DNA from: Flavobacterium aquidurense
GTDB taxonomy: Bacteria; Bacteroidota; Bacteroidia; Flavobacteriales; Flavobacteriaceae
DNA length: 64,000 nucleotides
Direction: 5' to 3'
NCBI GenBank assembly: GCA_900107365.1
Contig: FNPS01000003.1
Location: forward strand, 186,001-250,000
The translations under genes were made by a program, and so were the position numbers. Of the stretch, positions 33,322-54,909 are shown piece after piece. Below the pieces are notes generated by a model. The model did no database searches and was not told the origin of the DNA. It saw only the letters and a program-made list of their open reading frames with translations. How positions within the stretch are numbered: the stretch's first letter is position 1; the number at the start of each line of letters is the position of its first letter.

Positions 33322-33367
33322 AATTATTCTATTTGAACCCAATATTAAGGTTAAATTATTACTCTAT

Positions 33368-35803: not shown

Positions 35804-35812
35804 AAGACTTAC

Positions 35813-36883
35813 ATGGAAAAAAAGGCAACCGAAAACGATGAAATTTCGTTAAATGAATTAATACAAAAAGTAAAAGAATGGTATTTGTATTTGCTTTTAA
35901 AATGGAAAATGATTTTTTTAGCTGGGATAGTTGGGGCAGGGTGTGGTGTAATTTATTCACTTATTACAAAACCAATCTATACTGCTACATTAACATTTGC
36001 TTTAGAGGATGATAAGGGAGGGGGTGGAATTGGTGGAGCTTTGGGTTTAGCAAGTTCATTTGGATTAGATTTAGGAGGAAGTGGAGGAGGAATTTTTACT
36101 GGTTCTAATTTGACTGAATTGTTCAAGTCAAGATCAATGGTGGAGAAAACCCTACTGATGCCAGTTAATGTAAATGGAAAGTTAATTTCCTTAGCAGAAA
36201 TGTATATTCAGGAAAATAAATGGAGAAAAAATTGGTCTGAAGAACCAAAATTTGCTGCAATTAAATTTTTGCCTAACGCCAATCGCGAAAAGTTTACACG
36301 TGCAGAAGATAGCATAATGGGAATTATGTATTCGAATTTATCTAAGGGAGGTCTTGCAGTGGGACAGAAAGATAAAAAAATTGCGATAATTAGTATAGAT
36401 GTTTCTTCCACAAATGAGTTGTTTTCAAAGTACTTTTGTGAGGCTTTAGCCAGACAGGTTGGAACATTTTATGTTACAACAAAAAGTAAAAAAGCAAGAA
36501 TTAATATGAATATTTTGGAGCGACAAGTTGATTCGATTAGAAGAGAACTTAACGGTGCTATAACCGGTGTTGCTGTAGCGAATGATAATGCTTTTAATTT
36601 AAATCCTGCAATGAATGTTCGTAGGGCACCATCCGCTCGAAGACAAGTTGATGTTCAGGCTAATACAGCGATTTTAACAGAGTTAGTAAAGCAGGCAGAA
36701 TTAGCGAAAGTAACATTGCGAAAAGAAACTCCATTAATTCAGGTGATTGATAGACCAATTTTACCTTTAGCTAAAGAAAGATTTGGTAAGGCAAAAGGAA
36801 TTTTGATTGGGGGATTTTTAGCTGGTTTTTTAATGATATTCTATTTAATCTTTAGAAAGATTTTAAAAACCTTAGTTATATAA
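35813..36883 (+). CDS. Wzz-like chain-length determinant without kinase domain
   Basis: Inner-membrane polysaccharide co-polymerase (356 aa). Membrane segments lie at about residues 33-53 and 328-347, flanking a periplasmic region that includes a Gly-rich stretch near 67-95 (GGGGIGGALGLASS) and helical parts. No nucleotide-binding domain is present, unlike the Wzc-like protein at 24232. It likely sets the length of the Wzy-made polymer together with the SLBB protein before it. Confidence 0.85.
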   Translation: MEKKATENDEISLNELIQKVKEWYLYLLLKWKMIFLAGIVGAGCGVIYSLITKPIYTATLTFALEDDKGGGGIGGALGLASSFGLDLGGSGGGIFTGSNLTELFKSRSMVEKTLLMPVNVNGKLISLAEMYIQENKWRKNWSEEPKFAAIKFLPNANREKFTRAEDSIMGIMYSNLSKGGLAVGQKDKKIAIISIDVSSTNELFSKYFCEALARQVGTFYVTTKSKKARINMNILERQVDSIRRELNGAITGVAVANDNAFNLNPAMNVRRAPSARRQVDVQANTAILTELVKQAELAKVTLRKETPLIQVIDRPILPLAKERFGKAKGILIGGFLAGFLMIFYLIFRKILKTLVI

Positions 36884-36910: not shown

Positions 36911-37939
36911 ATGAAAAATTATACTTTAAAAGTTCAGCAAATCATAAAAGAGACTGAAGATACTATTACGTTGTGTTTTAAGCAACCTGGGTTAAAAAAG
37001 GTTAAATATCTCGCAGGTCAATATTTAACATTACAATTTAGAATTAATGGTAGAAGATATATTAGACCTTATTCTTTCTCATCAACTCCCACAATTGATT
37101 CAACTCTTAATGTTACAGTAAAACGTGTACCAGGTGGAATTGTTTCTAATTATATTAATGACAATGTAAAAGTTGATGATGTAATTGAAGTGCAAGAGCC
37201 ATTAGGGGATTTTATTTTTGAAGAAGAAGAGTCAGTGAAATCTGTTGTTTTTTGGGGGGTTGGAAGTGGTATAACACCTCTTTTTTCTATGATAAAATTT
37301 TTATTAACTGGCCAGCCACTAGTTAATATTCATCTAGTTTATGGAAATAAATCTAAAGCATCAATAATTTTTCAGGATGAATTAGAGAAATTTAAGCAAA
37401 CTTATCCAAATCGTTTTAAAATTTATTATTTCTACTCAAAAGAAGAATTTTTTAATAATGACTCGCATAATTTTCATGGAAGGATTAATTCAAATTTTAT
37501 AAGAGAGTTACTTACAAAGATAGATGAGCCAACAAGACATTATGTTTGCGGGCCTATTGGACTAAAAGACACAATTAAAGATTCATTGATTAGTATTTCA
37601 GGGAATTTAGATAATTTATTTTCCGAAGATTTTGAGATTGTTAAAAATCCCGAAGATTTTAAAGAAATAAGTAAGCAAGATATCAAATTGAATTTTAAAG
37701 GTATTGAAAATATGGTTACTATTAATAAAGGAAATTCAATACTTGAGGAAGCATTAGAAATTGGAATTGAATTGCCTTATTCATGTCAAACGGGAAACTG
37801 TAGTACTTGTAAAGCAACTCTTAAATCAGGAGAAATAAAAATGATTGGCTTAAGTAAGCCTAGGACTGATTTAAACGATAATGAATATTTATTATGTTGT
37901 AGCTACCCGCTAACAAATAATGTTTATGTTGAGATATAA
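36911..37939 (+). CDS. Ferredoxin-NAD(P)H reductase, probable CDP-6-deoxy-glucoseen reductase (E3)
   Basis: Flavo-iron-sulfur reductase (342 aa). The FAD domain (residues 1-100) has RRYIRPYSFSSTP; the NAD domain has FWGVGSGITPLFSMI near 115 and YVCGPIGLKD near 210. A plant-type [2Fe-2S] domain is at the C terminus, with the ligands in SCQTGNCSTC and a final Cys in LLCC. It precedes rfbF and rfbG as ddhD does in Yersinia and Salmonella, so it should supply electrons to RfbH. Known AscD/DdhD carry the ferredoxin domain at the N terminus; here the order is reversed. Confidence 0.8.
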   Translation: MKNYTLKVQQIIKETEDTITLCFKQPGLKKVKYLAGQYLTLQFRINGRRYIRPYSFSSTPTIDSTLNVTVKRVPGGIVSNYINDNVKVDDVIEVQEPLGDFIFEEEESVKSVVFWGVGSGITPLFSMIKFLLTGQPLVNIHLVYGNKSKASIIFQDELEKFKQTYPNRFKIYYFYSKEEFFNNDSHNFHGRINSNFIRELLTKIDEPTRHYVCGPIGLKDTIKDSLISISGNLDNLFSEDFEIVKNPEDFKEISKQDIKLNFKGIENMVTINKGNSILEEALEIGIELPYSCQTGNCSTCKATLKSGEIKMIGLSKPRTDLNDNEYLLCCSYPLTNNVYVEI

Positions 37940-37964
37940 TAACCATTAATAACAAAATAAAATA

Positions 37965-38741
37965 ATGAAAGTAGTAATTTTTGCAGGTGGTTTTGGAACT
38001 CGCCTTATGGAAGAAACTGAGGCAAGGCCTAAACCAATGGTGGAAATTGGAGGTAAACCCATTTTGTGGCATATTTTGAAAATGTACGAGCAACATGGTT
38101 ACAATGAGTTTGTTATCTGTTTAGGATATAAAGCGACTTTTATTAAAGAATACTTTTATAATTATTATTTGCATAATTCTGATGTAACAATTGAATTGGC
38201 CAATAATAATATTAATGTCCATTATTCCGAAACTGAATCTTTCAAAGTCACATTGATCGATACTGGTCTTCATACAAATACAGCGGGAAGGTTGAAACGT
38301 ATTAAAAAATATGTAAAAGATGAAACTTTTATGCTTACCTATGGAGATGGTGTTGCGGATGTGAATTTGTCTGAATTACTTGAATTTCATAAGTCACATG
38401 GTAGATTGGCTACACTAACAAGTGTTCAGGTCCCAGGGCGTTTTGGGAATTTGGAAATAGGTAATGAAGGTGAGGTCGATAGTTTTGTGGAAAAACCAGC
38501 TGGTGATGGAATGTGGATTAATGGAGGTTTTTTTGTTTTAGAACCAGGAATTTTTGAATATCTTGAATATGATGTTGAGGATGTTCAATGGGAAAAAGAG
38601 CCTTTAGGAGCTATTGCTAAGGATCAACAATTAGCTGCTTACAGACACAACGGATTTTGGAAGTGTATGGATGCTTTAAGGGATAGGGTTGAATTGGAAG
38701 CAATGTGGAATTCTGGAAATGCAAAATGGAAAACATGGTAG
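37965..38741 (+). CDS. rfbF: Glucose-1-phosphate cytidylyltransferase
   Basis: Nucleotidyltransferase making CDP-glucose, the first step to CDP-3,6-dideoxyhexoses (258 aa). It starts MKVVIFAGGFGTRLMEETEARPKPMVEIGGKP-like residues with the signature GGFGTRL at 8-14, and has LTYGDGVADVN and WINGGFFVLEP typical of RfbF/DdhA. rfbG overlaps its end. Confidence 0.96.
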   Translation: MKVVIFAGGFGTRLMEETEARPKPMVEIGGKPILWHILKMYEQHGYNEFVICLGYKATFIKEYFYNYYLHNSDVTIELANNNINVHYSETESFKVTLIDTGLHTNTAGRLKRIKKYVKDETFMLTYGDGVADVNLSELLEFHKSHGRLATLTSVQVPGRFGNLEIGNEGEVDSFVEKPAGDGMWINGGFFVLEPGIFEYLEYDVEDVQWEKEPLGAIAKDQQLAAYRHNGFWKCMDALRDRVELEAMWNSGNAKWKTW

Positions 38742-39826
38742 TTTCATTATTTGAAAAATTAAAAGCATCTTATAATGGAAAAAAAGTCTTTTTAACTGGT
38801 CATACTGGTTTTAAAGGCTCTTGGATGTTAAAAACTTTGTCTTTGTTAGGTGCCGAAGTAAAAGGCTATGCTTTAGAACCACAAACTAAAGATGATTTGT
38901 TTGTTCTTATAGAGGGACAGAAAATATGTGATTCTGTAATCGCAGATTTAAGAGATAAAAAACGCTTAGAAAAAGAGATTCTTGATTTTCAACCTGATTT
39001 TGTTTTTCATCTAGCAGCACAGCCATTGGTTCGCTTATCTTATGCTATACCGGCAGAAACTTTTGAAGTAAATGTTATTGGTACTGCTAATGTATTAGAC
39101 GCAGTTCGTTTATTAGCAAAAAAATGTGATGTGGTATTAATTACAACAGATAAAGTATACCACAATAATGAGTGGATTTATCCATACCGTGAAAACGATA
39201 GACTAGGAGGTTATGATCCATACAGTGCAAGTAAAGCATGTGCCGAGCTTGTTATAGATTCCTACAGAAATTCGTTTTTTAATAATAAAACATATAATAT
39301 TCACAAAAAAGGAATTGCTGTTGGAAGAGCAGGAAATGTTATTGGAGGAGGAGATTGGTCAAAGGATCGATTGATTCCGGATATAGCAAAAGCTTTAGCC
39401 TCTGATATAGCAGTTGTAATAAGAAATCCCAAATCAGTTAGACCATGGCAACATGTTTTAGAGCCTATTATGGGTTATTTATTATTAGGTGCTAATCTTG
39501 AAGTAAATTCACTTCAATTCAATCAGTCTTATAATTTTGGGCCACATATATCAGATGCATTGCCAGTTGAAGAAATGCTAAATCTGGCAATTCAAAGTTG
39601 GGGAAAAGGTAAATATAAAGTGGAGTTTGATGAAAATCAACCTCATGAAGCTGGATTGCTAAAATTAGATATTAGTAAAGCTATTACTGAGCTGAATTGG
39701 GAACCAAAATTAGATGCTGAGAAAGCTGTTAGTATGACTATCGATTGGTATAAAGCTTTTTATGATGATAGTAAAAGCATTTCAAGTTTCACAGCGCAAC
39801 AAATCATTTATTTTTTAAATAAATAA
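38735..39826 (+). CDS. rfbG: CDP-glucose 4,6-dehydratase
   Basis: Extended SDR (363 aa from this start) making CDP-4-keto-6-deoxy-D-glucose. It has KKVFLTGHTGFKGSWM near the N terminus, the RfbG-specific VLITTDKVYHNNEW and PYRENDRLGG, and Tyr/Lys in DPYSASKACAEL. The ATG at 38735 lies in ATGGTAG, so it overlaps the rfbF stop; an ATG at 38726 is also possible. Placement between rfbF and the branching cassette fits the CDP-sugar pathway. Confidence 0.95.
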   Translation: MVVSLFEKLKASYNGKKVFLTGHTGFKGSWMLKTLSLLGAEVKGYALEPQTKDDLFVLIEGQKICDSVIADLRDKKRLEKEILDFQPDFVFHLAAQPLVRLSYAIPAETFEVNVIGTANVLDAVRLLAKKCDVVLITTDKVYHNNEWIYPYRENDRLGGYDPYSASKACAELVIDSYRNSFFNNKTYNIHKKGIAVGRAGNVIGGGDWSKDRLIPDIAKALASDIAVVIRNPKSVRPWQHVLEPIMGYLLLGANLEVNSLQFNQSYNFGPHISDALPVEEMLNLAIQSWGKGKYKVEFDENQPHEAGLLKLDISKAITELNWEPKLDAEKAVSMTIDWYKAFYDDSKSISSFTAQQIIYFLNK

Positions 39827-39829
39827 TAA

Positions 39830-40885
39830 ATGCTAGATTATTTTGATGATGATTTGGATTTAGTATTTGAAAATACTAAAAATCTTTGGCTAGATAGTGA
39901 AAATAAAACAATATTCCTTACAGGAGGTACTGGTTTTTTTGGAATTTGGTTATTAATGAGTTTTATCTTTATTAATAGAAAATTAAAATTAAAAGCAAAA
40001 ATAATTGTTCTAACACGTGACGTAAATAAATTTCTAGATAAAAATAAGTGGATTAAAGAGTATAATGAAATTACTTTTTTAGAGGGCGATGTTCTCAATT
40101 TTGATTTTATAGAGGATGATATTGATTATATTATTCATGCAGCTACTGAGGCTAGTGTCAAGCTGAATGATGAACAACCGTTAGTTATGTTTGAAACTGT
40201 TGTAAACGGAACTAAAAGAGTTTTAGAATTTGCAGAGTTAAAGAAAGTAAAGTCATTTTTGCTTACCAGTAGCGGAGCAGTATATGGAAAGCAACCCTCA
40301 GACATTGAGAATATTTCAGAAAATTTTATAGGAGCTCCAATCCCATCAGATGCTGCATCTATGTATGGAGAAGGAAAAAGAATGGCGGAACTCTTATGCG
40401 CTGCTCACTATAAATTATTTGATTTACCGGTTAAAATTGCTAGATGTTATGCTTTTCTGGGGCCGTTTTTAGAATTAAATTCTCATTTTGCAGCTGGCAA
40501 TTTTATTAAAAATTTCCTAAATGAAAATGATATAATTATCGAAGGCGACGGAACACCTTACAGATCCTACATGTATCCTGCCGATTTGGCAGTATGGTTA
40601 TGGACAATATTATTTAAGGGAGAGAATAATAGTCCTTATAATGTTGGATCAGATAGAAGTATTACGATATCAGACCTTGCAACTCTTATTTCAAAGCAAG
40701 ACAGTTTAAATCATATAAAAGTGATTGTAAAAACAAAACCATCCAATAATCCTCCATTAAGATACGTTCCGAACATTGATAAAGCCGTACAAGGTTTAAA
40801 TCTAGGAGTTTATACAAGTTTAGAAACAAGCTTAGCTAAGACAATTTTTTTTAATAAAAATATTTTAAACCTTTCGAATAAATAA
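39830..40885 (+). CDS. Extended SDR (NAD-dependent epimerase/reductase), cassette gene 1
   Basis: Nucleotide-sugar SDR (351 aa). The NAD motif TGGTGFFGIW is near residues 30-40, after an unusual acidic N-terminal 25 residues. It has YIIHAATEAS, LTSSGAVYGKQ and the catalytic Tyr/Lys in SMYGEGKRMAE. It resembles the SDR at 44615 along its whole length, so the two are paralogues flanking three carbon-chain enzymes. By context it could reduce the keto group of the branched CDP-sugar (the YerF role) or epimerise it. Exact reaction not known. Confidence 0.75.
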   Translation: MLDYFDDDLDLVFENTKNLWLDSENKTIFLTGGTGFFGIWLLMSFIFINRKLKLKAKIIVLTRDVNKFLDKNKWIKEYNEITFLEGDVLNFDFIEDDIDYIIHAATEASVKLNDEQPLVMFETVVNGTKRVLEFAELKKVKSFLLTSSGAVYGKQPSDIENISENFIGAPIPSDAASMYGEGKRMAELLCAAHYKLFDLPVKIARCYAFLGPFLELNSHFAAGNFIKNFLNENDIIIEGDGTPYRSYMYPADLAVWLWTILFKGENNSPYNVGSDRSITISDLATLISKQDSLNHIKVIVKTKPSNNPPLRYVPNIDKAVQGLNLGVYTSLETSLAKTIFFNKNILNLSNK

Positions 40886-40889
40886 GATT

Positions 40890-42719
40890 ATGAAAATATC
40901 AGATTTAATAGCCGATTTTTTAATAAAAAAGGAAATAAAGCATGTTTTTGGAATTATAGGGGCTGGAAATGCACATATTTTTGATTCAATTCAGCAAAAA
41001 GGATATACTGAAATCATTTGTGTTCACCATGAACAGGCAGCTTGTATGGCAATGCAAACATATTATAGAACCAACGGAAAAGTCACAGCAGCAATTCTAA
41101 CAACTGGTGCTGGCTCAACAAATGGAATTACTGGAGTGGTAAGTGCATGGGCTGATTCAATACCAGGAATTATTATATCTGGAAATGAGCATTCTAAATT
41201 CGTTGATTTACATAAAGACGTTAGAATGTGGGGTGTACAAGGTTACGATAGTCCTGCGATGGTTGAAAAGGTAACAAAGTATGCAACGAAAGTATCTGAA
41301 GCTAATCTAGTTGTTTATGAGTTAGAGAAAGCATATTCAATTGCAACGCATGGGCGCCCTGGTCCATGTTGGATTGACGTACCTATGAATTTGCAATCAA
41401 GTAATATCGAAGAAAAAGATATCATTCATTTTAAATCATCTGAATTACCAAATTTAAATCTGGATGTTGATAGTAACTTACGACAAAATGTTGATTTAAT
41501 TACAGAATCTATAAAAAAATCTAAACGTCCTTTGTTTTGGTTTGGTAACGGTATTCGATTGGCAAATGCTGAATCATTGTTGGAACCATTGTTAGAAAAA
41601 TATAATATACCAGCTTTAGTAACTTGGGCAGGTATAGACTCAATAGACTCAAATCACCCGTTAGTATATGGCAGAGCTGGTACATACGGACAGAGGAGTG
41701 CTAATTTTATCCTTCAAAATTGTGATTTACTAATTTGCATAGGAACTAGGATGGCAATTTCACAGGTTGGGTATGATATTAATGAGTTGGCTAGAGAGGC
41801 AGAAATAGCTGTTGTAGATATAGACAAGTTTGAATTGGATAAATATAAAGAAAGATATAAATATTCGATAAATGCTGATGCTGGTGTTTTTATTAAAAAA
41901 ATGCTTGATAAAGAACTAATTGATTCGTTAGATTTTTCAAATTGGATTCAAACTTGTAATTATTATAGAGAACAATATCCTTGGTTTAATTCAGATGATC
42001 ATCCTGATAAAGATGGGTTTATCAATTCTTACCAGTTTATGGAAAAATTAAACTCCCATTTAAAGCCAGATCAGCATATCACAACCGATATGGGGACGGC
42101 ACTTCTTAGCGGTCACCAGGTTTTAAGAATAGGGAAAGAACAGAGATTAATGACTTCCACTGGATTAGGCGAAATGGGTTATGGTCTACCGGCAGCAATT
42201 GGAGCCTCTGTCGCAAGAGGAAAAGGAGAGGTATTGTGCCTAAATTGCGATGGTGGAATGATGATGAACTTGCAAGAACTGCAAACCATCGTTCACTATA
42301 AATTACCAATAAAACTCTTTATCTTTAATAATGATGGTTATTTAATGATAAAACATACGCAAAATGCTCTCTTTAATGGAAGAAGAGCAGGTGTAGATAG
42401 TAATTCAGGAGTGACTTGTCCCAATTTTAGTGCATTGGCTACAGCCTTTGGAATACCTTCATTCCAAATTAAAACTTGGGAAGATTTTGAAAATGTAATT
42501 CCTCAGGTACAAGAAATCGACGGTCCTGTAATTTGTGAAGTATTTATGCATCCATATCAATTATTTGTTCCAAAACTAGGATTAGCAATCCAAAGTGATG
42601 GTAGCTTAATATCACCACCTTTGGAGGATTTATCTCCATTTATTTCTCGAGAAGAATTGAGTAAGAATATGTTAAATGGTTTGCATCCTAAATCGTCTAA
42701 TATTGAAGTTAAAAAATAA
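40890..42719 (+). CDS. ThDP-dependent acetolactate-synthase-like lyase, cassette gene 2
   Basis: Thiamine-diphosphate enzyme (609 aa). The Pyr domain has the catalytic Glu48 in CVHHEQAACMAM, the middle domain starts near residue 205, and the PP domain carries the ThDP/Mg motif around Asp454 (NCDGGMMMN) with FNNDGYLMIKHTQ. Such enzymes decarboxylate 2-oxoacids and pass the acyl anion on; YerE does this onto CDP-3,6-dideoxy-4-ketoglucose in yersiniose synthesis. Its place after rfbG and before an aldolase pair suggests the donor is a 4-hydroxy-2-oxoacid. An ordinary acetolactate synthase is unlikely in this setting. Confidence 0.85.
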   Translation: MKISDLIADFLIKKEIKHVFGIIGAGNAHIFDSIQQKGYTEIICVHHEQAACMAMQTYYRTNGKVTAAILTTGAGSTNGITGVVSAWADSIPGIIISGNEHSKFVDLHKDVRMWGVQGYDSPAMVEKVTKYATKVSEANLVVYELEKAYSIATHGRPGPCWIDVPMNLQSSNIEEKDIIHFKSSELPNLNLDVDSNLRQNVDLITESIKKSKRPLFWFGNGIRLANAESLLEPLLEKYNIPALVTWAGIDSIDSNHPLVYGRAGTYGQRSANFILQNCDLLICIGTRMAISQVGYDINELAREAEIAVVDIDKFELDKYKERYKYSINADAGVFIKKMLDKELIDSLDFSNWIQTCNYYREQYPWFNSDDHPDKDGFINSYQFMEKLNSHLKPDQHITTDMGTALLSGHQVLRIGKEQRLMTSTGLGEMGYGLPAAIGASVARGKGEVLCLNCDGGMMMNLQELQTIVHYKLPIKLFIFNNDGYLMIKHTQNALFNGRRAGVDSNSGVTCPNFSALATAFGIPSFQIKTWEDFENVIPQVQEIDGPVICEVFMHPYQLFVPKLGLAIQSDGSLISPPLEDLSPFISREELSKNMLNGLHPKSSNIEVKK

Positions 42720-42722
42720 CAA

Positions 42723-43598
42723 ATGAAAAAATTAAGAGTAGCAATATTAGGAAGTGGAAATATAGGTACTGATTTATTAATTAAAATTCAGCGCTCTGAA
42801 TTTTTAGAATGTGTTTTATTTATTGGTAGAAATTTATCATCACCAGGGATGGCTAGGGCCATAGCAATGGGAGTAAAAGTTTCGGATGAAAGTATAAACG
42901 CAATTGTTAAAAATTCAGATTTAGTTGATTTAGTTTTTGATGCAACCTCTGCTAAAGATGCTAAAATGCATTGGGATATTTTAGATAAATTAGGCAAAAT
43001 TGTTGTTGATATGACTCCTGCAAAACTGGGAGTGTTTTGTATACCAGCTGTAAATTTACATGAAGTTATTGAACACAGAAATGTAAATATGATAACTTGT
43101 GGCGGTCAGGCTTCAATTCCCATTGCCCACGTAATAGGTAAGACACAGGAGAACGTCGAATATATTGAAGTAGTTTCTAGTATTGCTTCAAGAAGTGCCG
43201 GTCCAGCAACTAGATTAAATTTAGACGAATATGTTGATACAACTGAAAATGGTATAAAACATTTTTCTAATGTCCCTAGAACAAAAGCAATTTTAAATTT
43301 GAATCCTGCAGATCCCTGTATTGATATGCAAACTACTATCTTTGCGCAAGTTGAAAATCCAAATATGGAGTATTTGCAAAAAGAGATTGATATAATGATA
43401 GAAAAAATACAGGCTTATGTACCAGGATATAGTTTATTGGTTCCTCCTGTTTTTGAAAATGGAAGAATAGTAATTATGGTCAAAGCGCAAGGACTGGGAG
43501 ATTATTTGCCTAAGTATGCTGGTAATTTAGATATTATCAATTGCGCAGCGATTGCTGTTGCTGAACAGTATTCTAGAAGTTTTAATAATATCAAATAA
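42723..43598 (+). CDS. Acylating acetaldehyde dehydrogenase, cassette gene 3
   Basis: MhpF/DmpF-type enzyme (291 aa, slightly shorter than the usual 305-316) that interconverts acetyl-CoA and acetaldehyde. The NAD motif ILGSGNIGTDL is at residues 8-18, the catalytic Cys126 is in TCGGQASIPI, and SSIASRSAGPATRLNLDE follows, as in DmpF. It is directly followed by its usual partner aldolase. In degradation pathways the pair consumes 4-hydroxy-2-oxovalerate; here it may run in reverse to make acetaldehyde. No aromatic-degradation genes are present. Confidence 0.9.
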   Translation: MKKLRVAILGSGNIGTDLLIKIQRSEFLECVLFIGRNLSSPGMARAIAMGVKVSDESINAIVKNSDLVDLVFDATSAKDAKMHWDILDKLGKIVVDMTPAKLGVFCIPAVNLHEVIEHRNVNMITCGGQASIPIAHVIGKTQENVEYIEVVSSIASRSAGPATRLNLDEYVDTTENGIKHFSNVPRTKAILNLNPADPCIDMQTTIFAQVENPNMEYLQKEIDIMIEKIQAYVPGYSLLVPPVFENGRIVIMVKAQGLGDYLPKYAGNLDIINCAAIAVAEQYSRSFNNIK

Positions 43599-43604
43599 AT
43601 TTTC

Positions 43605-44615
43605 ATGATTAAACAAATATTAATTAGCGACCCTACATTACGAGATGGAAATCATGCCTGCGCTCATCAATTAAGTGCTGAACAAATTGCAATTTATTCT
43701 GAAGCTGCTGATAAAGCGGGAGTGCCTATTGTAGAAGTAGGTCACGGTAATGGACTGGGGGCGTCTTCGTTACAAGTAGGATTAAGTAAAGAAGATGATA
43801 AAACTATTTTAGAGACAGCTAGAAAACATCTTAATAAAAGTAAATTAGGAATACATGTTATACCTGGTTTTGCCACTATAAAACGAGATTTAGTTAACGC
43901 TATAGATATTGGCGTTGAGGTTATTAGAGTAGCATCCCATTGTACCGAAGCTGATATTACACAACGTCACCTTGGTTATGTAAGAGAAAGAGGAAAGGAA
44001 GCATATGGGGTCTTAATGATGAGCCATATGGCTTCAGCATCTGTTTTGGTTGAAGAAGCTCAGAAAATGGAATTATATGGAGCAGAAGGAATTATAATTA
44101 TGGATTCAGCTGGTGCTTATTTGCCATCGGATGTCCAAGAAAAGATTTCAGCATTAGTTAATGGATTAAAAGTACCGGTAGGTTTTCATGCACATAATAA
44201 TCTTGGAATGGCGGTAGCAAATTCTATTACAGCTATTGAGTCGGGAGCAAAAATTCTCGATGGAACTGCGAGAGGTTTTGGTGCTGGTGCTGGAAACGCA
44301 CAATTAGAAGTTTTGGTAGCTGTTTTAGAAAAAATGGGATATGTAACCGGAATAGATTTGTACAAAATTCTTGACGCATCTGATATAGCGGAGAAAAAAA
44401 TAATGAGCACTGTTCCAACTATTAAATCAGACAGTATTGTTAGTGGTTTGTCAGGAGTTTTTTCAGGTTTTGCAAAGCATGTTACCAGGATTTCAAATGA
44501 ATATGAAGTGGATCCGAGAGATGTATACCGTGAATTAGGAAAAAGAAAAATTGTTGGAGGTCAGGAAGATATTATTATTGAAGTCGTGATGGATTTAATT
44601 AGAAATCGAAAATAA
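43605..44615 (+). CDS. 4-hydroxy-2-oxovalerate aldolase, cassette gene 4
   Basis: Class II pyruvate aldolase (336 aa) of the DmpG/MhpE type, with a TIM barrel and C-terminal communication domain. Active-site residues are Arg13, Asp14 and His17 in DPTLRDGNHA and metal ligands His195/His197 in GFHAHNNLGMA; GARGFGAGAGN-like residues close the barrel. It forms or cleaves 4-hydroxy-2-oxopentanoate from acetaldehyde and pyruvate, normally channelled with the dehydrogenase encoded 6 bp upstream. The next gene overlaps by one base. Confidence 0.92.
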   Translation: MIKQILISDPTLRDGNHACAHQLSAEQIAIYSEAADKAGVPIVEVGHGNGLGASSLQVGLSKEDDKTILETARKHLNKSKLGIHVIPGFATIKRDLVNAIDIGVEVIRVASHCTEADITQRHLGYVRERGKEAYGVLMMSHMASASVLVEEAQKMELYGAEGIIIMDSAGAYLPSDVQEKISALVNGLKVPVGFHAHNNLGMAVANSITAIESGAKILDGTARGFGAGAGNAQLEVLVAVLEKMGYVTGIDLYKILDASDIAEKKIMSTVPTIKSDSIVSGLSGVFSGFAKHVTRISNEYEVDPRDVYRELGKRKIVGGQEDIIIEVVMDLIRNRK

Positions 44616-45667
44616 TGAGTTTAGCTAAAAATAAAATTGTATTTGAGGATTGTAAAGCTTCATGTGTAGAAATTGAGAGTTTTTCAATTTTAGATAATCA
44701 ATCAATCCTAGTCACAGGCGGAACAGGTTTTGTTGGTAAATGGATTGCTGAAATGGTATCTTATATAAATTTTACCAGCAACTTAAACATTAAATTATAT
44801 TTGTTGGGTAGAGATATAGTTAAGTTTAAAGATGAAGTTCCTCATTTAGCAGAAAAAAGCTTTATAAATTTCATAGAGCAAGATGTTAGGTATTTGCATG
44901 ACTTACCTAGTGACCTAAATTATATTATTCATGCAGCAGGTTCTCCAGATAATAGAGAGCACGTGTCTGATCCATTAAAAACAATTGAAACATTTTATAA
45001 AGGAACTCAATCTTTATTAGATGCCGCATCTAGAATTCAGGATTTAAAAAAAATAGTGCACTTAAGTTCACACCAAGTGTATGGTAAAAATGAAACAGAA
45101 CAATTAATAAGCGAAAATTCTTTTGGACCTTTTGAAGCACTTAATATTGCTAATTGTTATGCTGAATCTAAGAGAATAGCTGAAACTTTATGTTCTTATT
45201 ACAAAAATAATTTAAGATTGCCTATTATAATCTTGAGACCATTTGCCTTCATAGGTCCATATCAAGACATAGAAAAACCATGGGCAATTAATAGCTTTAT
45301 TAGAGATGCAATTTTAGGTGGACCAATCAGAATTTTAGGAAATGGTCTAACCGAAAGGAGTTATTTATACGCAAGTGACATGGCATATTGCATTTTAAAA
45401 TCATTAATTGATGGTAAAATTGGTGAAATATATAATTTAGGCAGTAGTACCCCAATATCTTTAAATGAATTGGCAATCAAGATACAAAATCAATCTGGAT
45501 CTAAAATGGAAATTTTAACAAGATCATCTAAGGATTATTTAAGTGTTTCAAAACTAGTGCCTAATACTGATAAAATTAAAAAGGAATTAAATTTTAAAGA
45601 AGTATTTACAATTGACGAAGCAATCAATAGAACAATTTTGTGGAATCAGTTAAAAAGGAATAATTAA
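44615..45667 (+). CDS. Extended SDR (NAD-dependent epimerase/reductase), cassette gene 5
   Basis: Nucleotide-sugar SDR (350 aa), paralogue of the one at 39830. It has LVTGGTGFVGKWIAE near residues 31-45, YIIHAAGSPDN, LSSHQVYGKNE and catalytic Tyr/Lys in CYAESKRIAE. Shared pattern: an extra N-terminal stretch of about 28 residues before the NAD motif, then near-identical motif spacing. Its ATG overlaps the aldolase stop (TAATG), so it is translationally coupled. Likely a reductase or epimerase in the same sugar pathway. Confidence 0.75.
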   Translation: MSLAKNKIVFEDCKASCVEIESFSILDNQSILVTGGTGFVGKWIAEMVSYINFTSNLNIKLYLLGRDIVKFKDEVPHLAEKSFINFIEQDVRYLHDLPSDLNYIIHAAGSPDNREHVSDPLKTIETFYKGTQSLLDAASRIQDLKKIVHLSSHQVYGKNETEQLISENSFGPFEALNIANCYAESKRIAETLCSYYKNNLRLPIIILRPFAFIGPYQDIEKPWAINSFIRDAILGGPIRILGNGLTERSYLYASDMAYCILKSLIDGKIGEIYNLGSSTPISLNELAIKIQNQSGSKMEILTRSSKDYLSVSKLVPNTDKIKKELNFKEVFTIDEAINRTILWNQLKRNN

Positions 45668-45707
45668 ACTAAAAGATAAAAATTAAAAGATTTAATCAAT
45701 CATTGAT

Positions 45708-47012
45708 ATGTTACAAAATTTAAAAGAAGATTCTCTATTAAATAGTTTAAGAGAAATTGCAAAAAAGAAATCAACTCAAATTATTGTTGCTGGAGAAAAC
45801 TATATACCAGTTACGGGAAAAGTATTAGATGAAGAGGATATTTTAATGGGAGTTGATGCTGCCTTAGACGGATGGTTAACAGCAGGACGCTTCGCAAATA
45901 AGTTTGAAGCAGATTTCGCTGCATATTTTGGTGCACACAGATCTCTTTTAGTAAATTCAGGATCCTCTGCTAACCTTGTAGCATTTTATGCTTTAACTTC
46001 TCCGAAATTGGGAGAAAGAGCTATAAAACAGGGAGACGAAGTTATTACCGTAGCTGCAGGTTTTCCAACAACAATAAATCCAATAATTCAATTTGGAGCT
46101 ATTCCGGTTTTTATAGATGTGGATATTGCTACACATAATGTGAAAGCAGATATGATTGAGGCAGCAGTAAGTCCTAAAACAAAAGCAATTATGATTGCAC
46201 ATTCACTAGGAAATCCTTTTGACTTGGATGAAGTAATGCGTGTTGCTAAAAAATATAATCTTTGGGTAGTTGAGGATGATTGTGATTCATTAGGAGCTAC
46301 ATATAATGGAAAAAAAACGGGAACCTTTGGTGATATTTCTACTTTTTCATTTTATCCGGCACACCATATAACAATGGGAGAAGGTGGAGCAGTTTTAATT
46401 AATAATCCTGTTTTGTCAAAATTAGCGGAAAGTTTCCGTGATTGGGGACGTGATTGTTACTGTGAACCCGGAAAAGATGATACCTGCGGATGTCGTTTTG
46501 GACAGCAACTTGGAACATTGCCATATGGTTATGATCATAAGTATACATATTCTCACATTGGTTTCAACTTGAAAGTTACAGATATGCAGGCAGCTTTTGG
46601 TGTTTCGCAGATAAAAAAGATCGATCAATTCGTACAGCGTCGTAAAGAAAATTATGCTGCTTTATATGAGAGAATGAAAGAATTTGAAGAAGTTTTTATA
46701 TTACCTGAAGCAACTCCAAATTCAGAGCCATCTTGGTTTGGGTTTTTATTAACACTTAGGGAGGGTGATGCAAATGATCGCCATATGTTAGTACAACATC
46801 TGGAAAAGAATAAAATTGGTACTCGTTTATTATTTGGCGGAAATTTATTAAGGCAACCTGCTTATGCAAATATTGAACATAGAGTAGTTGGTTCATTAGA
46901 AAATACTGATATTATTATGAATCAATCATTTTGGCTAGGAGTCTGGCCAGGATTAAATGAATCACATTATGATTATATTGCTCAGGTAATACGTGAATAT
47001 TTAAATTCATAA
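45708..47012 (+). CDS. rfbH: CDP-4-keto-6-deoxy-D-glucose 3-dehydrase (E1)
   Basis: B6- and [2Fe-2S]-dependent dehydrase (434 aa) that removes the C3 hydroxyl, giving CDP-3,6-dideoxy-4-ketohexose. The usual aminotransferase lysine is replaced by histidine (His220 in [12 protein letters not shown]), the hallmark of E1. Iron-sulfur ligands are in [14 protein letters not shown] (Cys250, 252, 260). It needs a flavin-iron-sulfur reductase, probably the gene at 36911. It lies 8 kb from that reductase, separated by the cassette at 39830-45667. Confidence 0.96.
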
Positions 47013-48379
47013 TGCTTAAATTAATAAAAAAGAGCTCCTCTAAAATTGGAATTGATGGAGCTATAGCTTATACTGTTTTGTCAAGGATTATTCAAGCTGG
47101 TGGCGGAGTGATTACATTATTATTCGTGGCAAGGTGTTTGACTAAAGTTGAACAAGGCTATTATTACACATTTGGTAGTATATTGGCCATACAAATCTTT
47201 TTCGAATTAGGGTTATCAGGAATAATTACTCAGTTTGTAGCTCATGAAAATGCTAATCTAACTTGGAACGATCAAACCAGTTTTGTAGGTTCATCAGAAT
47301 CGAGTTCAAGGTTGGCTTCTTTGTTGCGATTTACTGTAAAATGGTTTGCTGTTCTTTCTGTATTATTAATTTTCGGTCTTTTAATTGCCGGTTATGTGTT
47401 TTTTAATAAATATGGTAAAGAAAATGTTGCTGTAAACTGGCAAATTCCTTGGATTATCCTCTCGTTAACAACTTCATTGTCACTAATGATTTCGCCTATC
47501 TTAGCCTTTTTTGAAGGTTTAGACCGAGTAAAAGAAGTAGCCAAAATTCGATTAGTACAACAAGTTATGCAACTGGTTTTAGTGTTGTTGATGTTTTTTT
47601 TAGGGTTTAAACTTTTCTCTGTTCCAGTAGCTGCAATAATATCTTTTTTAGTGTTTCCAATTTGGATTTTCTTTGGAAACAAAAAAAAGATATTAATTTT
47701 TATTTGGAATAAACTTGATAAATGGGGCGTAAACTACCGATTGGAAATATTTCCCTATCAATGGAAAATAGCGTTGAGTTGGATAAGTGGCTATTTTATA
47801 TTTCAACTTTTCAATCCCGTTCTATTTGCTACTGAAGGAGCAATTGTAGCCGGACAAATGGGAATGACTTTGGCAGTTTTGAATGCGATATTTTCTTTAG
47901 CGTTTAGCTGGATGTCAACTAAAGTGCCTGTTTTTTCTGGGTTAATTGCGCAAAAAGAATATGACAAATTAGACAATTTGTTTAATACAACTCTTATACA
48001 GTCAACTCTTTTAAACTTGCTTGCACTCACTACCCTTTTTGGAATTGTTTTTATATTGCGTCATTTTGAAGTAAAAATAGGAGGTAAGAATTTTGCAGAT
48101 AGATTTCTTCCCAATTTACCTATGCTTTTTATGATGATTCCAATTTTACTAAACCATGTTGTTGCAAGTTGGGCAACGTATATGCGTTGCCATAAAAAAG
48201 AACCTATGTTAATTCCTAGTGTCGTAATAGGAATACTTTGTAGCGTTTCAACTCTTACTCTTGGGAACTATTTTGGAGTACTTGGTCTCACATTAGGTTA
48301 TATGATTTTGACTGTAATAGGTTTTATATGGACCTATTTTATTTTTAGAACGAAGAAAAAAGAATGGCATAATGGATAG
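47012..48379 (+). CDS. wzx: Wzx-type polysaccharide flippase
   Basis: MOP-superfamily membrane protein (455 aa) with about 12 hydrophobic segments, expected to flip undecaprenyl-linked repeat units across the inner membrane. The N-terminal part has the family-like GGGVITLLFVARCLTKVEQGYYYTF. It overlaps rfbH by one base and the next glycosyltransferase by eight. Assigned from topology and neighbours; paired with Wzy at 53718. Confidence 0.85.
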   Translation: MLKLIKKSSSKIGIDGAIAYTVLSRIIQAGGGVITLLFVARCLTKVEQGYYYTFGSILAIQIFFELGLSGIITQFVAHENANLTWNDQTSFVGSSESSSRLASLLRFTVKWFAVLSVLLIFGLLIAGYVFFNKYGKENVAVNWQIPWIILSLTTSLSLMISPILAFFEGLDRVKEVAKIRLVQQVMQLVLVLLMFFLGFKLFSVPVAAIISFLVFPIWIFFGNKKKILIFIWNKLDKWGVNYRLEIFPYQWKIALSWISGYFIFQLFNPVLFATEGAIVAGQMGMTLAVLNAIFSLAFSWMSTKVPVFSGLIAQKEYDKLDNLFNTTLIQSTLLNLLALTTLFGIVFILRHFEVKIGGKNFADRFLPNLPMLFMMIPILLNHVVASWATYMRCHKKEPMLIPSVVIGILCSVSTLTLGNYFGVLGLTLGYMILTVIGFIWTYFIFRTKKKEWHNG

Positions 48380-49319
48380 TAAATTACAAATAGATTATCC
48401 AATATTAACTATTGGTATACCTACTTATAATCGACCTGGGGAAATAAAAAAACAAGTAAGATTACTGTTGCCCCAATTGAATGAACGTGTTAATTTGATT
48501 GTTTATGACAATCACTCTAATATACCAATAGAAAGTTACTTCACAAGTGGTGAATTATCTAAATTTACTTTGATTAGGAATAAGGTTAATGTCGGAGGTG
48601 ATGCTAATATCGCACGATGCTTTGAAAATTGTGAAACTAAATGGTTGTGGACCTTATCTGATGACGACTATGTGAGAAAAGATGCTGTTGCGTTCATGTT
48701 AGACATTATTGATAAAAAAGGTGATGCTGTATTTCTGAACTTTTGTAAGGGAGTATCGTTTAAAACTAAGGGCTTTGATGAGTTGATAAATAAGTTTAAG
48801 TGCCCCACTGTTTTTTCAAGTTCTTTTACTATGTCTTCTTGCTTGTATGATATCAGTAAACTTCAACCTTCATTGCAGAATTACTATACAAATCTTTCCA
48901 GTATGGTGGGTACTATTATTTTAGTTTTGAAATATGTACAAAAAAATGAAGACGTTATTTGTGAATTCATTGATGAAACACTTATTGACTCATATAATGA
49001 TGAAGTAGGTTGGGATTACAGAACTTATATCCCTCGTACAAGAATTTTTTTGGAGGCTTTTTATGATAGTAAACGAAATAGTTTATATAATGGGACTCTT
49101 TTTCTGGGGTGTCACTTAACAAATTATTGGTTAATTGCTAATGACAGGAATAAAAAGAAAGTTTCGTATATTGAAAGATGCAGTTTATTTATATTAACAC
49201 TGAATAATCAGGGCATCTTGAATTCATTTATTTACTGCCCTAAAACAATTGTCCGTCTTACTCTAACTTTGATTTTAGATCATAAATTTCTTAAAGGATT
49301 AAAAACAAGAGACAAATAG
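48372..49319 (+). CDS. Glycosyltransferase family 2
   Basis: Cytoplasmic GT-A transferase (315 aa). It begins with ILTIGIPTYNRPGEI and has the nucleotide/metal motif in WTLSDDDYVRKD near residue 96. Acceptor and donor cannot be told. It overlaps wzx by 8 bp, so it belongs to the O-unit assembly set. Confidence 0.85.
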   Translation: MDSKLQIDYPILTIGIPTYNRPGEIKKQVRLLLPQLNERVNLIVYDNHSNIPIESYFTSGELSKFTLIRNKVNVGGDANIARCFENCETKWLWTLSDDDYVRKDAVAFMLDIIDKKGDAVFLNFCKGVSFKTKGFDELINKFKCPTVFSSSFTMSSCLYDISKLQPSLQNYYTNLSSMVGTIILVLKYVQKNEDVICEFIDETLIDSYNDEVGWDYRTYIPRTRIFLEAFYDSKRNSLYNGTLFLGCHLTNYWLIANDRNKKKVSYIERCSLFILTLNNQGILNSFIYCPKTIVRLTLTLILDHKFLKGLKTRDK

Positions 49320-49329
49320 CAATATAATT

Positions 49330-50457
49330 ATGGAAAATAGGATACTATTTATAGCAAATGATGCAGGACTTTATGGCGCAAATCAGTCTTTGATAAATAT
49401 TATATCATCGTTAAAGGAGAAGAATGTTTTTGTAACTGTTGTTTTTCCAATTAAAGGTGCTATTTGTGATGTTTTTGATGAGAAAGGGTGGGATTACCAT
49501 ATTGTTTATTTCAGGACCGAGTTATGCGCACGACCTAGTGGAGTTATTGAATTATCGATAAATATATTAAGGAATTATAAAAAGAAATACATAAATGCAA
49601 ATGCATTGAATGCTTTATTTGATATTGTTGAAGTCAATAAAATAAATATTATTCATTCAAATTCAAGTGTCGTTTCTATTGGTGTTGATCTAGCGAAAAA
49701 GATGGTTATTCAGCATGTATGGCATTTAAGAGAACATATACATCCTAATTTTGATATGTATGTATACGGCGGACTTGAAAAATATAAACGTAAAATTCAA
49801 AAAAATAAAAATATTATTTGTATAACTAAAAGTGTGGCACATGGTTTTGGTGTTGATAAGACAGCTTTCGTTTTACTCGATGCTGTACGAAAAATGCCGA
49901 AATTTAAAGAGCCAGTTCAGAAAGATAAATATTTTTTATTCTGTGGTTCAATAGTTAAAAATAAGGGCATAGAGGAGGCTATAGAAGCTTTTTACGAAAT
50001 TTCCATAAATTATCCAAATTATAAGTTTTTAGTTGTTGGAGAAGGGGCACCAGATTATGAAACCTATTTAAAAGAAAGGGTGAAAGGTCTGGGGATGGAG
50101 AAAAAGATTGAATTTTTAGGATTTAGGAAGGATGTCGATAATTTAATGGCTAATGCGACTGCTTTTTTGATGTGTTCACGAAATGAAGCTTTAGGAAGGG
50201 TTACCGTAGAAGCTATGATTAATTTTTGTCTTGTTATTGGCTATAATGATAGCGGTACAGCGGAGATTGTTGAAGATGGTAAAACAGGATTGTTATATAA
50301 AAGTAAAGAAGAGCTCGTTAAACACATGGGTTATAGTATTGCTAATTATCCAGCCCTAGAAATAATTTTAAATAATGCCTATAAGTTTGCTTTGAATAAT
50401 TTTTTGGAAGAAAAATTTAGCACTGATTTAAATAATTATTACAATAATTTGGATTAA
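49330..50457 (+). CDS. Glycosyltransferase family 4
   Basis: GT-B transferase (375 aa). The N-terminal domain starts RILFIANDAGLYGANQSL; the C-terminal domain begins near residue 200 (YFLFCGSIVKNKGIEEAI) and has the E-x7-E motif in NEALGRVTVEAM followed by GTAEIVEDGKTGLLY. Retaining transferase of the O-unit set; specificity unknown. Confidence 0.87.
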   Translation: MENRILFIANDAGLYGANQSLINIISSLKEKNVFVTVVFPIKGAICDVFDEKGWDYHIVYFRTELCARPSGVIELSINILRNYKKKYINANALNALFDIVEVNKINIIHSNSSVVSIGVDLAKKMVIQHVWHLREHIHPNFDMYVYGGLEKYKRKIQKNKNIICITKSVAHGFGVDKTAFVLLDAVRKMPKFKEPVQKDKYFLFCGSIVKNKGIEEAIEAFYEISINYPNYKFLVVGEGAPDYETYLKERVKGLGMEKKIEFLGFRKDVDNLMANATAFLMCSRNEALGRVTVEAMINFCLVIGYNDSGTAEIVEDGKTGLLYKSKEELVKHMGYSIANYPALEIILNNAYKFALNNFLEEKFSTDLNNYYNNLD

Positions 50458-50553
50458 TTTATATTGTAAAAAATTAATTCTATCATAAAATATTCAGTAA
50501 GAGCAATATGTTTAATATAGGTATATAAAAATTTTATTGCATTAAATTTAAAT

Positions 50554-51411
50554 ATGGATAATAAAAAAATGAAATTAGCAGCAATAGTAATAATTTATTA
50601 TCCAGATATAAAGGACTTACAAAAAAATATTTTTAGATATATTGATGATATTGATAAATTGTTAATTTGGGATAATAGTCCAAGTGATAGTCAGACGTAT
50701 AGAATTGCCTTAGATGGCTATGAGGATAAGGTAGAAGTCTTGACTACAGGAAAAAATGAATTTATCGCCTATCCATTGAATCAAGCCGTTAAATGGTGTA
50801 TGGAAAATAATTTCACCCATTTACTTTCTATGGATCAGGATAGTTTATTTGACGTGGGAGAATTTAAATTATATAAAAACAGAGTACACAAAAACTTAGG
50901 AAATAAGAATGTAATATTTGGAGTTAATCCCAATAATAAGTTTAGAAAGCAAAATGATTTTTTACCTGTTAATTGGTTTATTACTTCAGGATCAATATAC
51001 GATGTTAATATAATTAACAAACTAGGGGGGTTTAGAGAAGATTATAAAATTGATTGTGTAGATAATGAAATTTGTTATAGGACTAATTTGAATGGATATA
51101 GGACAGTAGTAGATACAAAATGCCATTTAAACCAAATATTTGGCAATCATAAAAAAACAATATTTGGATTTACAACCTTGGGGTACTCTCCTTTTAGAAC
51201 ATATTCTATCTTATGTAATCATATCTTGCTATGGAAACAATATCCACAGCAAATTGAGAAAGAATTAAAAAAAGAAATTGTTAAAGAATATTTTATTTAC
51301 AGATTTGTAAAAATACTATTATCTGAAAATAGAAAAATTGATAAATCAATGGCTTTGTTTTATGGTTTTGTCGATGGTATTAGAGGCGTAAGAAAAAATA
51401 GATTTTGTTAA
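50554..51411 (+). CDS. Glycosyltransferase family 2, rhamnosyltransferase-like
   Basis: GT-A transferase (285 aa) with LAAIVIIYYPDIKDL, LLIWDNSPSD and HLLSMDQDSLF (the D-x-D region near residue 93). This wording is typical of rhamnosyltransferase-like GT2 enzymes, and dTDP-rhamnose genes are in the locus, so rhamnose is a reasonable guess. An ATG at 50569 is an alternative start. A 96-bp AT-rich gap precedes it. Confidence 0.8.
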   Translation: MDNKKMKLAAIVIIYYPDIKDLQKNIFRYIDDIDKLLIWDNSPSDSQTYRIALDGYEDKVEVLTTGKNEFIAYPLNQAVKWCMENNFTHLLSMDQDSLFDVGEFKLYKNRVHKNLGNKNVIFGVNPNNKFRKQNDFLPVNWFITSGSIYDVNIINKLGGFREDYKIDCVDNEICYRTNLNGYRTVVDTKCHLNQIFGNHKKTIFGFTTLGYSPFRTYSILCNHILLWKQYPQQIEKELKKEIVKEYFIYRFVKILLSENRKIDKSMALFYGFVDGIRGVRKNRFC

Positions 51412-51433
51412 ATTTAAATTTTTAATAAATAAA

Positions 51434-52357: not shown

Positions 52358-52547
52358 GTAGTACAAAAATGAAAATAGATGGTGAATATTTAAATGTACT
52401 CCTTCTAAAGTCGACTATTAAAGAGGGTGTATTTGTTAGATAACAATCTATATTGAAAAAATAATAAATTAATAATGCATACTTCAATTATATGTGAGAG
52501 CTGGAAAGCTTGATACGTATGGTTTTTTAAGTTTAACTTCAACACTA

Positions 52548-53714: not shown

Positions 53715-53717
53715 TAA

Positions 53718-54905: not shown

Positions 54906-54909
54906 TAAT

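Follow-up and report, generated by a model that had tools for sequence, protein, structure and literature searches.

Which sugar is made where five additional genes stand inside a gene set for a cytidine diphosphate (CDP)-activated 3,6-dideoxyhexose? This question is raised by a 64,000-nucleotide stretch of the Flavobacterium aquidurense genome (assembly GCA_900107365.1, contig FNPS01000003.1, positions 186,001 to 250,000; hereafter "the window"), in which a short-chain dehydrogenase/reductase (SDR1), a thiamine diphosphate (ThDP)-dependent enzyme, an acylating acetaldehyde dehydrogenase, a 4-hydroxy-2-oxovalerate aldolase and a second SDR (SDR2) are encoded between rfbG and rfbH. We regard it as likely that this cassette makes a CDP-activated ten-carbon sugar for a surface polysaccharide, namely a 3,6-dideoxyhexose with a 4-C-(1,3-dihydroxybutyl) branch, which is the skeleton of erwiniose. 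The prediction builds on the gene content and intact motifs of the cassette, on its conserved linkage in other genomes, and on the transfer of part of it as a module.

Gene content of the cassette

The five open reading frames (ORFs) of the cassette (39830–45667) are intact, all lie on the + strand, and are flanked by rfbG, which ends at 39826, and rfbH, which starts at 45708. Neighboring cassette ORFs are separated by 3 to 6 bases or overlap by 1 base, and the window is part of a single contig of a 5.44-Mb genome. SDR1 (39830–40885, 351 amino acids) is an extended SDR with TGGTGFFG and YGEGK motifs. It is followed by the predicted C4-branching ThDP enzyme (40890–42719, 609 amino acids), which has the N, M and C TPP_enzyme domains and the residues Glu48, Cys453 and Asp454. 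The DmpF-type dehydrogenase (42723–43598, 291 amino acids; TIGR03215, 375.5 bits, cut-off 282) carries Cys126, which is kept in all 67 aligned rows. The DmpG-type aldolase (43605–44615, 336 amino acids; TIGR03217, 388 bits, cut-off 286) has a DmpG communication domain (DmpG_comm), and its residues Arg13, Asp14, His17, His195 and His197 are kept in 65 of 65 aligned rows. With both families above cut-off and the catalytic residues retained, the window appears to hold the means for making 4-hydroxy-2-oxopentanoate (4-hydroxy-2-oxovalerate). SDR2 (44615–45667, 350 amino acids), again an extended SDR, accompanies the dehydrogenase and aldolase. Neither SDR had an NCBIfam match above cut-off.

The genes around the cassette, all on the + strand, encode glucose-1-phosphate cytidylyltransferase (rfbF, 37965–38741; TIGR02623, 387 bits, cut-off 300), CDP-glucose 4,6-dehydratase (rfbG, 38726–39826, with the frame also open from a GTG at 38705; TIGR02622, 475 bits, cut-off 278) and CDP-4-keto-6-deoxyglucose 3-dehydrase, or E1 (rfbH, 45708–47012; NF011936, 706 bits, cut-off 423). 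The last has a histidine at the site of the pyridoxal phosphate (PLP)-binding lysine and a cysteine cluster. Upstream lies a ferredoxin-type reductase gene (36911–37939, +) with FAD, NAD and 2Fe-2S domains, which adjoins rfbF also in Flavobacterium relatives. From what we know of comparable clusters, we take its product to be the E3 partner of RfbH, likely DdhD/RfbI. With this reductase, assigned by its domains, the gene set for CDP-3,6-dideoxy-4-ketoglucose looks complete. An earlier note, made from this DNA alone, had described five packed genes between rfbG and rfbH, had assigned the five to these families, and had named Glu48, Asp454, Cys126 and the five aldolase residues; the ORFs, family searches and alignments bear this description out, with the dehydrogenase, aldolase, RfbF, RfbG and RfbH above curated cut-offs.

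Relationship of the branching enzyme to JanthE

The solved structure closest to the window ThDP enzyme was 8rph (820 bits, 59% identity over the length), followed at a distance by 5ahk (261 bits). We take 5ahk to be a YerE homologue, and "YerE-type" here denotes likeness to it. In place of the GDG motif, the window enzyme has CDG (Cys453-Asp454-Gly455), a feature absent from the earlier note. In a tree of 51 chosen rows it grouped with the JanthE type in a clade of 31 sampled rows (support 100), separate from the YerE-type enzymes and the acetolactate synthases. Among named genomes, its nearest relatives in the genome scan were from Flavobacterium (F. shii, 92% identity). The clade also contains the enzyme of locus L090, which is 98.7% identical to the 8rph chain and stands in a locus with rfbFGH, the dehydrogenase, the aldolase and SDR2. 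This locus, the nearest to JanthE, has the window gene set, but an SDR that we call SDRb replaces SDR1.

8rph is JanthE from Janthinobacterium sp. HH01, an enzyme with the uncommon CDG motif that takes ketone acceptors and uses 4-hydroxy-2-oxovalerate, with benzaldehyde, among its donors (PMC12188165). JanthE was characterized in vitro as a biocatalyst, and according to the same article its natural substrates have yet to be identified (PMC12188165). A second relative, ErwE from Pectobacterium atrosepticum, forms erwiniose from a hydroxy-2-oxo acid and CDP-4-keto-3,6-dideoxyglucose; it does not use pyruvate, prefers 4-hydroxy-2-oxo acids and accepts 4-hydroxy-2-oxohexanoate too (PMC12247030). 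Acceptor, type of donor and ten-carbon product of this system are as predicted for the window, and the ThDP step proposed in the earlier note has thus already been published for a relative. In yersiniose A synthesis, the ThDP enzyme YerE likewise acts at C4 of CDP-3,6-dideoxy-4-ketoglucose (PMC12247030), but unlike the window prediction it uses pyruvate and creates a two-carbon branch. MMAR_2332, a YerE-like enzyme for caryophyllose in Mycobacterium marinum, resembles ErwE in donor preference (PMC12247030); the tetrahydroxyhexyl branch and twelve carbons of caryophyllose differ from the sugar predicted here. More than 200 YerE-like enzymes have been found in silico (PMC12247030).

Conserved linkage of the donor genes

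A scan of a genome collection with the window ThDP enzyme retrieved 60 loci (56–92% identity). Their hosts include Flavobacterium, Pedobacter, Mucilaginibacter, Pseudomonas, Duganella, Rugamonas and Polynucleobacter, together with metagenome-derived records titled Spirochaetes, Gemmatimonadetes and Armatimonadetes. The dehydrogenase was nearby in 57 loci and the aldolase in 55, which also have the complete pair; all 55 pairs lie on one strand, with a median gap of 927 bp between the ThDP and aldolase genes. Three of the five loci with an incomplete pair reach contig edges (L100, L111 and L117), and two are true misses (L086 and L088). The CDG motif was present in 59 of 60 loci (57 by pattern; L087 and L111 read separately), L088 being the sole locus with GDG. 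RfbH was found in 53 of 60 loci, 48 times within the fetched stretch and five times elsewhere in the genome (L066, L073, L083, L111 and L117); the genomes of L068, L072, L074, L107, L112 and L115 gave no RfbH match at E ≤ 1e-100. L112 has a divergent DegT protein with the histidine retained at the PLP site. In a 40-row tree with MhpE and three further Bacteroidota homologues as outgroup, the cassette aldolases were set apart from these with full support.

Of 395 genomes from the phylum of the window, only 7 have the aldolase family (E ≤ 1e-40), and the cassette is present in two of these. A chance neighborhood was ruled out by this rarity and by the 55 cellular loci, out of 60 related ones, in which ThDP enzyme, dehydrogenase and aldolase are found together. 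In genome G285 of the same genus, the flanks match those of the window at 80% and 85% DNA identity, and the place of the five genes is taken by a single SDR gene and a YerE-type ThDP gene, beside which dehydrogenase and aldolase are absent. None of the three YerE-type loci examined (L051, L052 and L177) has the pair either. The pair is likewise absent from all of 18 other YerE-like loci (L040–L050 and L137–L143), 16 of which encode an HpaI-type aldolase or NeuB-type synthase in its stead, often with a gene resembling 3-dehydroquinate synthase. With five further loci added (L022 and L024, both of about 3 kb, and L179–L181; L144, the upstream stretch of L040, was not counted), 17 of 23 have such an enzyme and 0 of 23 the pair. 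The earlier note had suggested that a longer aldehyde in the scheme with this aldolase would give a caryophyllose-like sugar; in most of these loci a different enzyme takes the place of the aldolase. Most of the YerE-like ThDP genes in L040–L050 and L137–L141 adjoin rfbFGH. The HpaI- and NeuB-type enzymes probably supply donors for longer branches. Taken together, the distribution suggests that enzyme lineages are paired with different 2-oxo-acid-making enzymes.

Plasmid records contained no relative of the ThDP enzyme at E ≤ 1e-70. An aldolase match was found in 281 of them (best 58% identity), six of which were inspected, two of these being unannotated. On plasmids of Streptomyces, Leisingera and Phaeobacter (L119, L120 and L121), aldolases 54–58% identical to that of the window are paired with a dehydrogenase and neighbored by a ketoacyl synthase and carrier protein or by ATP-grasp and aminotransferase genes. 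These plasmid clusters are probably biosynthetic.

Transfer of the donor module to a different ThDP enzyme

One locus, L176 in genome G900 (one of 345 genomes of an order), contains the reductase, rfbFGH, an HpaI-like aldolase, a ThDP enzyme with GDG, a YerF-like SDR, and the dehydrogenase, aldolase and SDR2; we call an SDR "YerF-like" if it resembles the one beside the YerE-type gene in L177. The ThDP enzyme of L176 is only about 32% identical to that of the window, and its YerF-like SDR contrasts with SDR1 in the window; SDR2 is common to both, and the window has neither the YerF-like SDR nor the extra HpaI-like aldolase. In trees of 16 to 24 chosen rows, the dehydrogenase, aldolase and SDR2 of L176 grouped with cassettes from Pseudomonas, Duganella and Rugamonas (supports 92, 95 and 97, respectively; the SDR2 group without Pseudomonas). 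The same grouping was rejected for its ThDP enzyme (p = 7e-8), and likewise for RfbH (p = 0.0015) and RfbG (p = 0.0056). The dehydrogenase, aldolase and SDR2 genes have moved as a unit to a different ThDP enzyme.

Genome G900 has five pectate lyases, three of them in tandem, and an rpoB 86% identical to that of E. coli over its full length. These features fit a soft-rot enterobacterium, the group where erwiniose was found, and L176 may be the erwiniose cluster, in which case the ThDP enzyme of erwiniose synthesis would be of the GDG type. In G932, the pair occurs with another divergent ThDP enzyme. A single clade for the pair-bearing ThDP enzymes was not rejected by the approximately unbiased test (p = 0.285; 26 rows), so we do not claim an independent origin on the ThDP tree.

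Two SDRs with different distributions

The labels SDR1, SDR2 and SDRb were coined here. In the 55 complete loci, a reductase slot is filled by SDRb (24 loci), a YerF-like SDR (17) or SDR1 (9), or is empty (5; L072, L083, L105, L107 and L110), and never holds two of these SDRs. Given the role of YerF as reductase of the yersiniose branch ketone, SDR1, as an occupant of this exclusive slot, probably has the same function. FkbM methyltransferase genes were found only alongside SDRb (13 of 13). SDR2 occurs in 49 of these 55 loci and has been transferred along with the donor genes. Its absence from six loci (four from Pseudomonas, L105 and L112) indicates that the SDR2 step is not universal.

Proposed pathway and alternative explanations

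We infer every reaction of the following scheme, as well as its product and stereochemistry, from the genes. RfbF, RfbG, RfbH and the reductase would provide CDP-3,6-dideoxy-4-ketoglucose. The DmpF-type enzyme would convert acetyl-coenzyme A (acetyl-CoA) to acetaldehyde, which the DmpG-type aldolase, acting in the synthetic direction, would join to pyruvate to give 4-hydroxy-2-oxopentanoate. Decarboxylation of this acid by the CDG-type ThDP enzyme would yield a 3-hydroxybutanoyl carbanion, which the enzyme would attach at C4 of the ketosugar, and SDR1 would most likely reduce the resulting branch ketone. SDR2 may catalyze a step linked to the 4-hydroxy-2-oxopentanoate donor, possibly an epimerization or a further reduction. 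Comparison with the other loci supports three proposals of the earlier note: that the cassette forms a unit with the CDP-dideoxyhexose genes, that 4-hydroxy-2-oxopentanoate is the most likely donor, and that the product skeleton would be a 3,6-dideoxyhexose bearing a 4-C branch of four carbons.

Several observations weigh against this scheme. JanthE also accepts pyruvate and further 2-oxo acids as donors (PMC12188165), and the enzyme alone therefore does not force the donor. In L086, a CDG-type ThDP gene adjoins rfbFGH and the dehydrogenase–aldolase pair is missing, as it is from L088, whose ThDP gene belongs to the same clade. L088 (5175–7998), the GDG locus, has an RfbH match only below cut-off and a YerF-like SDR; a reversion to another donor is possible there. 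The acceptor may vary, since in L074, L107 and L115 the module is accompanied by a CDP-glucose 4,6-dehydratase while the search of these genomes yielded no RfbH; the sugar of these loci may retain the 3-hydroxyl. L074 and L115 also have an FkbM methyltransferase gene, and the three loci perhaps make a 3-hydroxy or O-methyl branched sugar. Three Pseudomonas loci (L075, 8203–11812; L076; L078) have adjacent YerE-type and CDG-type ThDP genes as well as the pair, perhaps for two branched sugars or for one sugar branched twice. Gene-distance correlations across 38 loci favor the module over rfbH only slightly (0.80 for ThDP–aldolase, 0.77 for ThDP–dehydrogenase and 0.78 for ThDP–SDR2, versus 0.74 for ThDP–rfbH and 0.75 for ThDP–rfbG; no significance test was applied, and the set omits ThDP frames of ≥750 amino acids and loci without one of the six genes). 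The scheme needs one ketone reduction and the window has two SDRs. Four Pseudomonas loci, among them L075, L076 and L078, are without SDR2.

The pyruvate accepted by JanthE and the lone ThDP gene of L086 would both fit a yersiniose-type system, in which the ThDP enzyme transfers two carbons from pyruvate and the dehydrogenase and aldolase merely feed or drain acetaldehyde. Such a system would do without separate donor-making genes, which the window has. Against it stand the proximity of the pair to the enzyme in 55 of 60 loci, its absence from the YerE-type loci L051, L052 and L177, and the joint move of pair and SDR2 to another ThDP enzyme; we consider a two-carbon branch quite improbable. 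A little more room is left for a different 4-hydroxy-2-oxo acid donor, which would arise if the substrates of dehydrogenase and aldolase were propanoyl-CoA and propanal, or if the aldehyde were longer still, and would give a branch of at least five carbons. Propanal is a known substrate of DmpF/DmpG-type pairs. The acceptance of 4-hydroxy-2-oxohexanoate by ErwE points the same way (PMC12247030), but the top NCBIfam models for the two proteins, both above cut-off, describe enzymes of acetaldehyde and 4-hydroxy-2-oxovalerate, and none of the five cassette genes matches a supplier of a longer aldehyde. This alternative is unlikely as well.

The window pair shares its enzyme families with DmpFG, BphIJ and the MhpFE pair (MhpF/MhpE of E. 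coli), and as a further alternative it could be the catabolic remnant of a meta-cleavage pathway. Those enzymes serve catabolic cleavage, whereas the window pair appears to be placed for synthesis. No ring-cleavage, hydrolase or hydratase family was found in the nine ORFs searched (36911–47009), the cassette aldolases stand apart from MhpE in the tree, and the cassette is linked to rfbFGH, which together make a catabolic role scarcely credible. We thus retain the erwiniose-type sugar as the likely product of the cassette.

Related cassettes on viral contigs

Unexpectedly, the window ThDP enzyme also retrieved five viral contigs, all of which encode an RfbH-like protein, a CDG-type ThDP enzyme, the dehydrogenase and the aldolase. 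Further scans brought the total to 77 distinct viral contigs (L182–L186 and L188–L294), of which 64 have the trio of ThDP enzyme, dehydrogenase and aldolase. Of these 64, CDG was readable in 58, five were not read, and one has GDG. An SDR resembling 4,6-dehydratases was nearby in 52, and RfbH in 31. The other 13 contigs comprise nine without one or two trio members, three with a distant aldolase, and one with a YerE-like enzyme and no pair. The earlier note had named a wide occurrence of the cassette without CDP-dideoxyhexose genes as a finding that would speak against it. This is not the case in cells, where most loci have RfbH; on the viral contigs with the trio, however, the fetched stretch (at most 6–8 kb on each side) showed no RfbH in 33 of 64 cases. 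The two viral RfbH proteins tested scored 447 and 475 bits against the cut-off of 423, and the PLP-site histidine was present in five of five.

A T4-type capsid gene was detected on 10 of 50 trio contigs tested. Seven of these matches were at E ≤ 1e-66, including that on a 326-kb contig; another, at 1e-25, lay at the end of its contig, and the remaining two were weak and contained internal stops. No T4-type capsid gene was found on the other 40, the contigs being fragments. One of five viral contigs tested carries a terminase. Frames near the viral cassettes belong to endolysin, tail sheath, clamp loader and deoxynucleoside monophosphate kinase families, and on a 150-kb contig DNA polymerase, exonuclease, endolysin and GroEL families were among 22 frames on both sides of the cassette. 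The trees with viruses had 67 (ThDP) and 66 (aldolase) rows; merging at 85% identity had reduced the 58 viral rows to 40. In the ThDP tree, a virus-only clade (support 100) took in 33 of these 40 viral representatives, with five others placed in the proteobacterial part and two close to L178. A virus-only group of 33 (support 100) was recovered in the aldolase tree as well. On the contigs inspected, the viral cassettes are set among glycosyltransferase and methyltransferase genes, as in L198 with glycosyltransferase and FkbM-type genes.

In the INPHARED collection, the window ThDP query gave only matches of 26–30% identity, the annotated ones being acetolactate synthases; a viral ThDP query gave none at E ≤ 1e-75, and a viral aldolase query gave one, a Salmonella contig filed as phage. 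The cassette was thus absent from isolate phage records at the thresholds used. We lean towards a joint claim of three parts: that phages, some of them T4-like, encode and use C4-branching chemistry to make a ten-carbon branched sugar for virions, phage DNA or the infected cell; that the natural donor of the cellular clade is 4-hydroxy-2-oxopentanoate; and that the 2-oxo-acid-making gene beside a YerE-like enzyme predicts branch length.

Genomic surroundings in the window

Upstream of the reductase gene, at 33251–36883, the window appears to encode Wza-like export and Wzc/Wzz-like chain-length proteins. A flippase-like membrane protein is predicted directly downstream of rfbH (47012–48379, +), followed by glycosyltransferase-like proteins (48372–55662). 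The export, chain-length and glycosyltransferase-like proteins suggest a capsule or O-antigen locus.

Implications

Catalysts that give chiral tertiary alcohols are being sought among the ThDP enzymes for C4-branched deoxysugars, which are rare surface sugars (PMC12247030). The ThDP chemistry is already known, and the window is in this respect less new than it first appeared; it seems to represent a further YerE-like branching system of the JanthE type, in which the donor module points to the natural donor. In the literature searched, with most subscription journals outside, we found no account of a mobile donor module, an exclusive reductase slot or a phage-borne version. No title or abstract start linked the dehydrogenase–aldolase pair to YerE-like enzymes, the primary ErwE, JanthE and enzyme-survey papers being outside this search. 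The M. marinum and M. kansasii papers searched do not mention aldolase or acetaldehyde, and PMC8657720 does not mention a gene cluster, rfb, CDP or wza.

If our reading is correct, the gene pair beside the enzyme names its natural donor, which would bear on the open point of the JanthE substrates (PMC12188165). Branch length would then be readable from genomes: an acetyl branch where no extra gene is present, a four-carbon branch with DmpFG, and probably a longer one with HpaI- or NeuB-type enzymes. If the phage-borne version holds, a sugar that ranks among the more elaborate ones of bacterial coats would be built by viruses as well.

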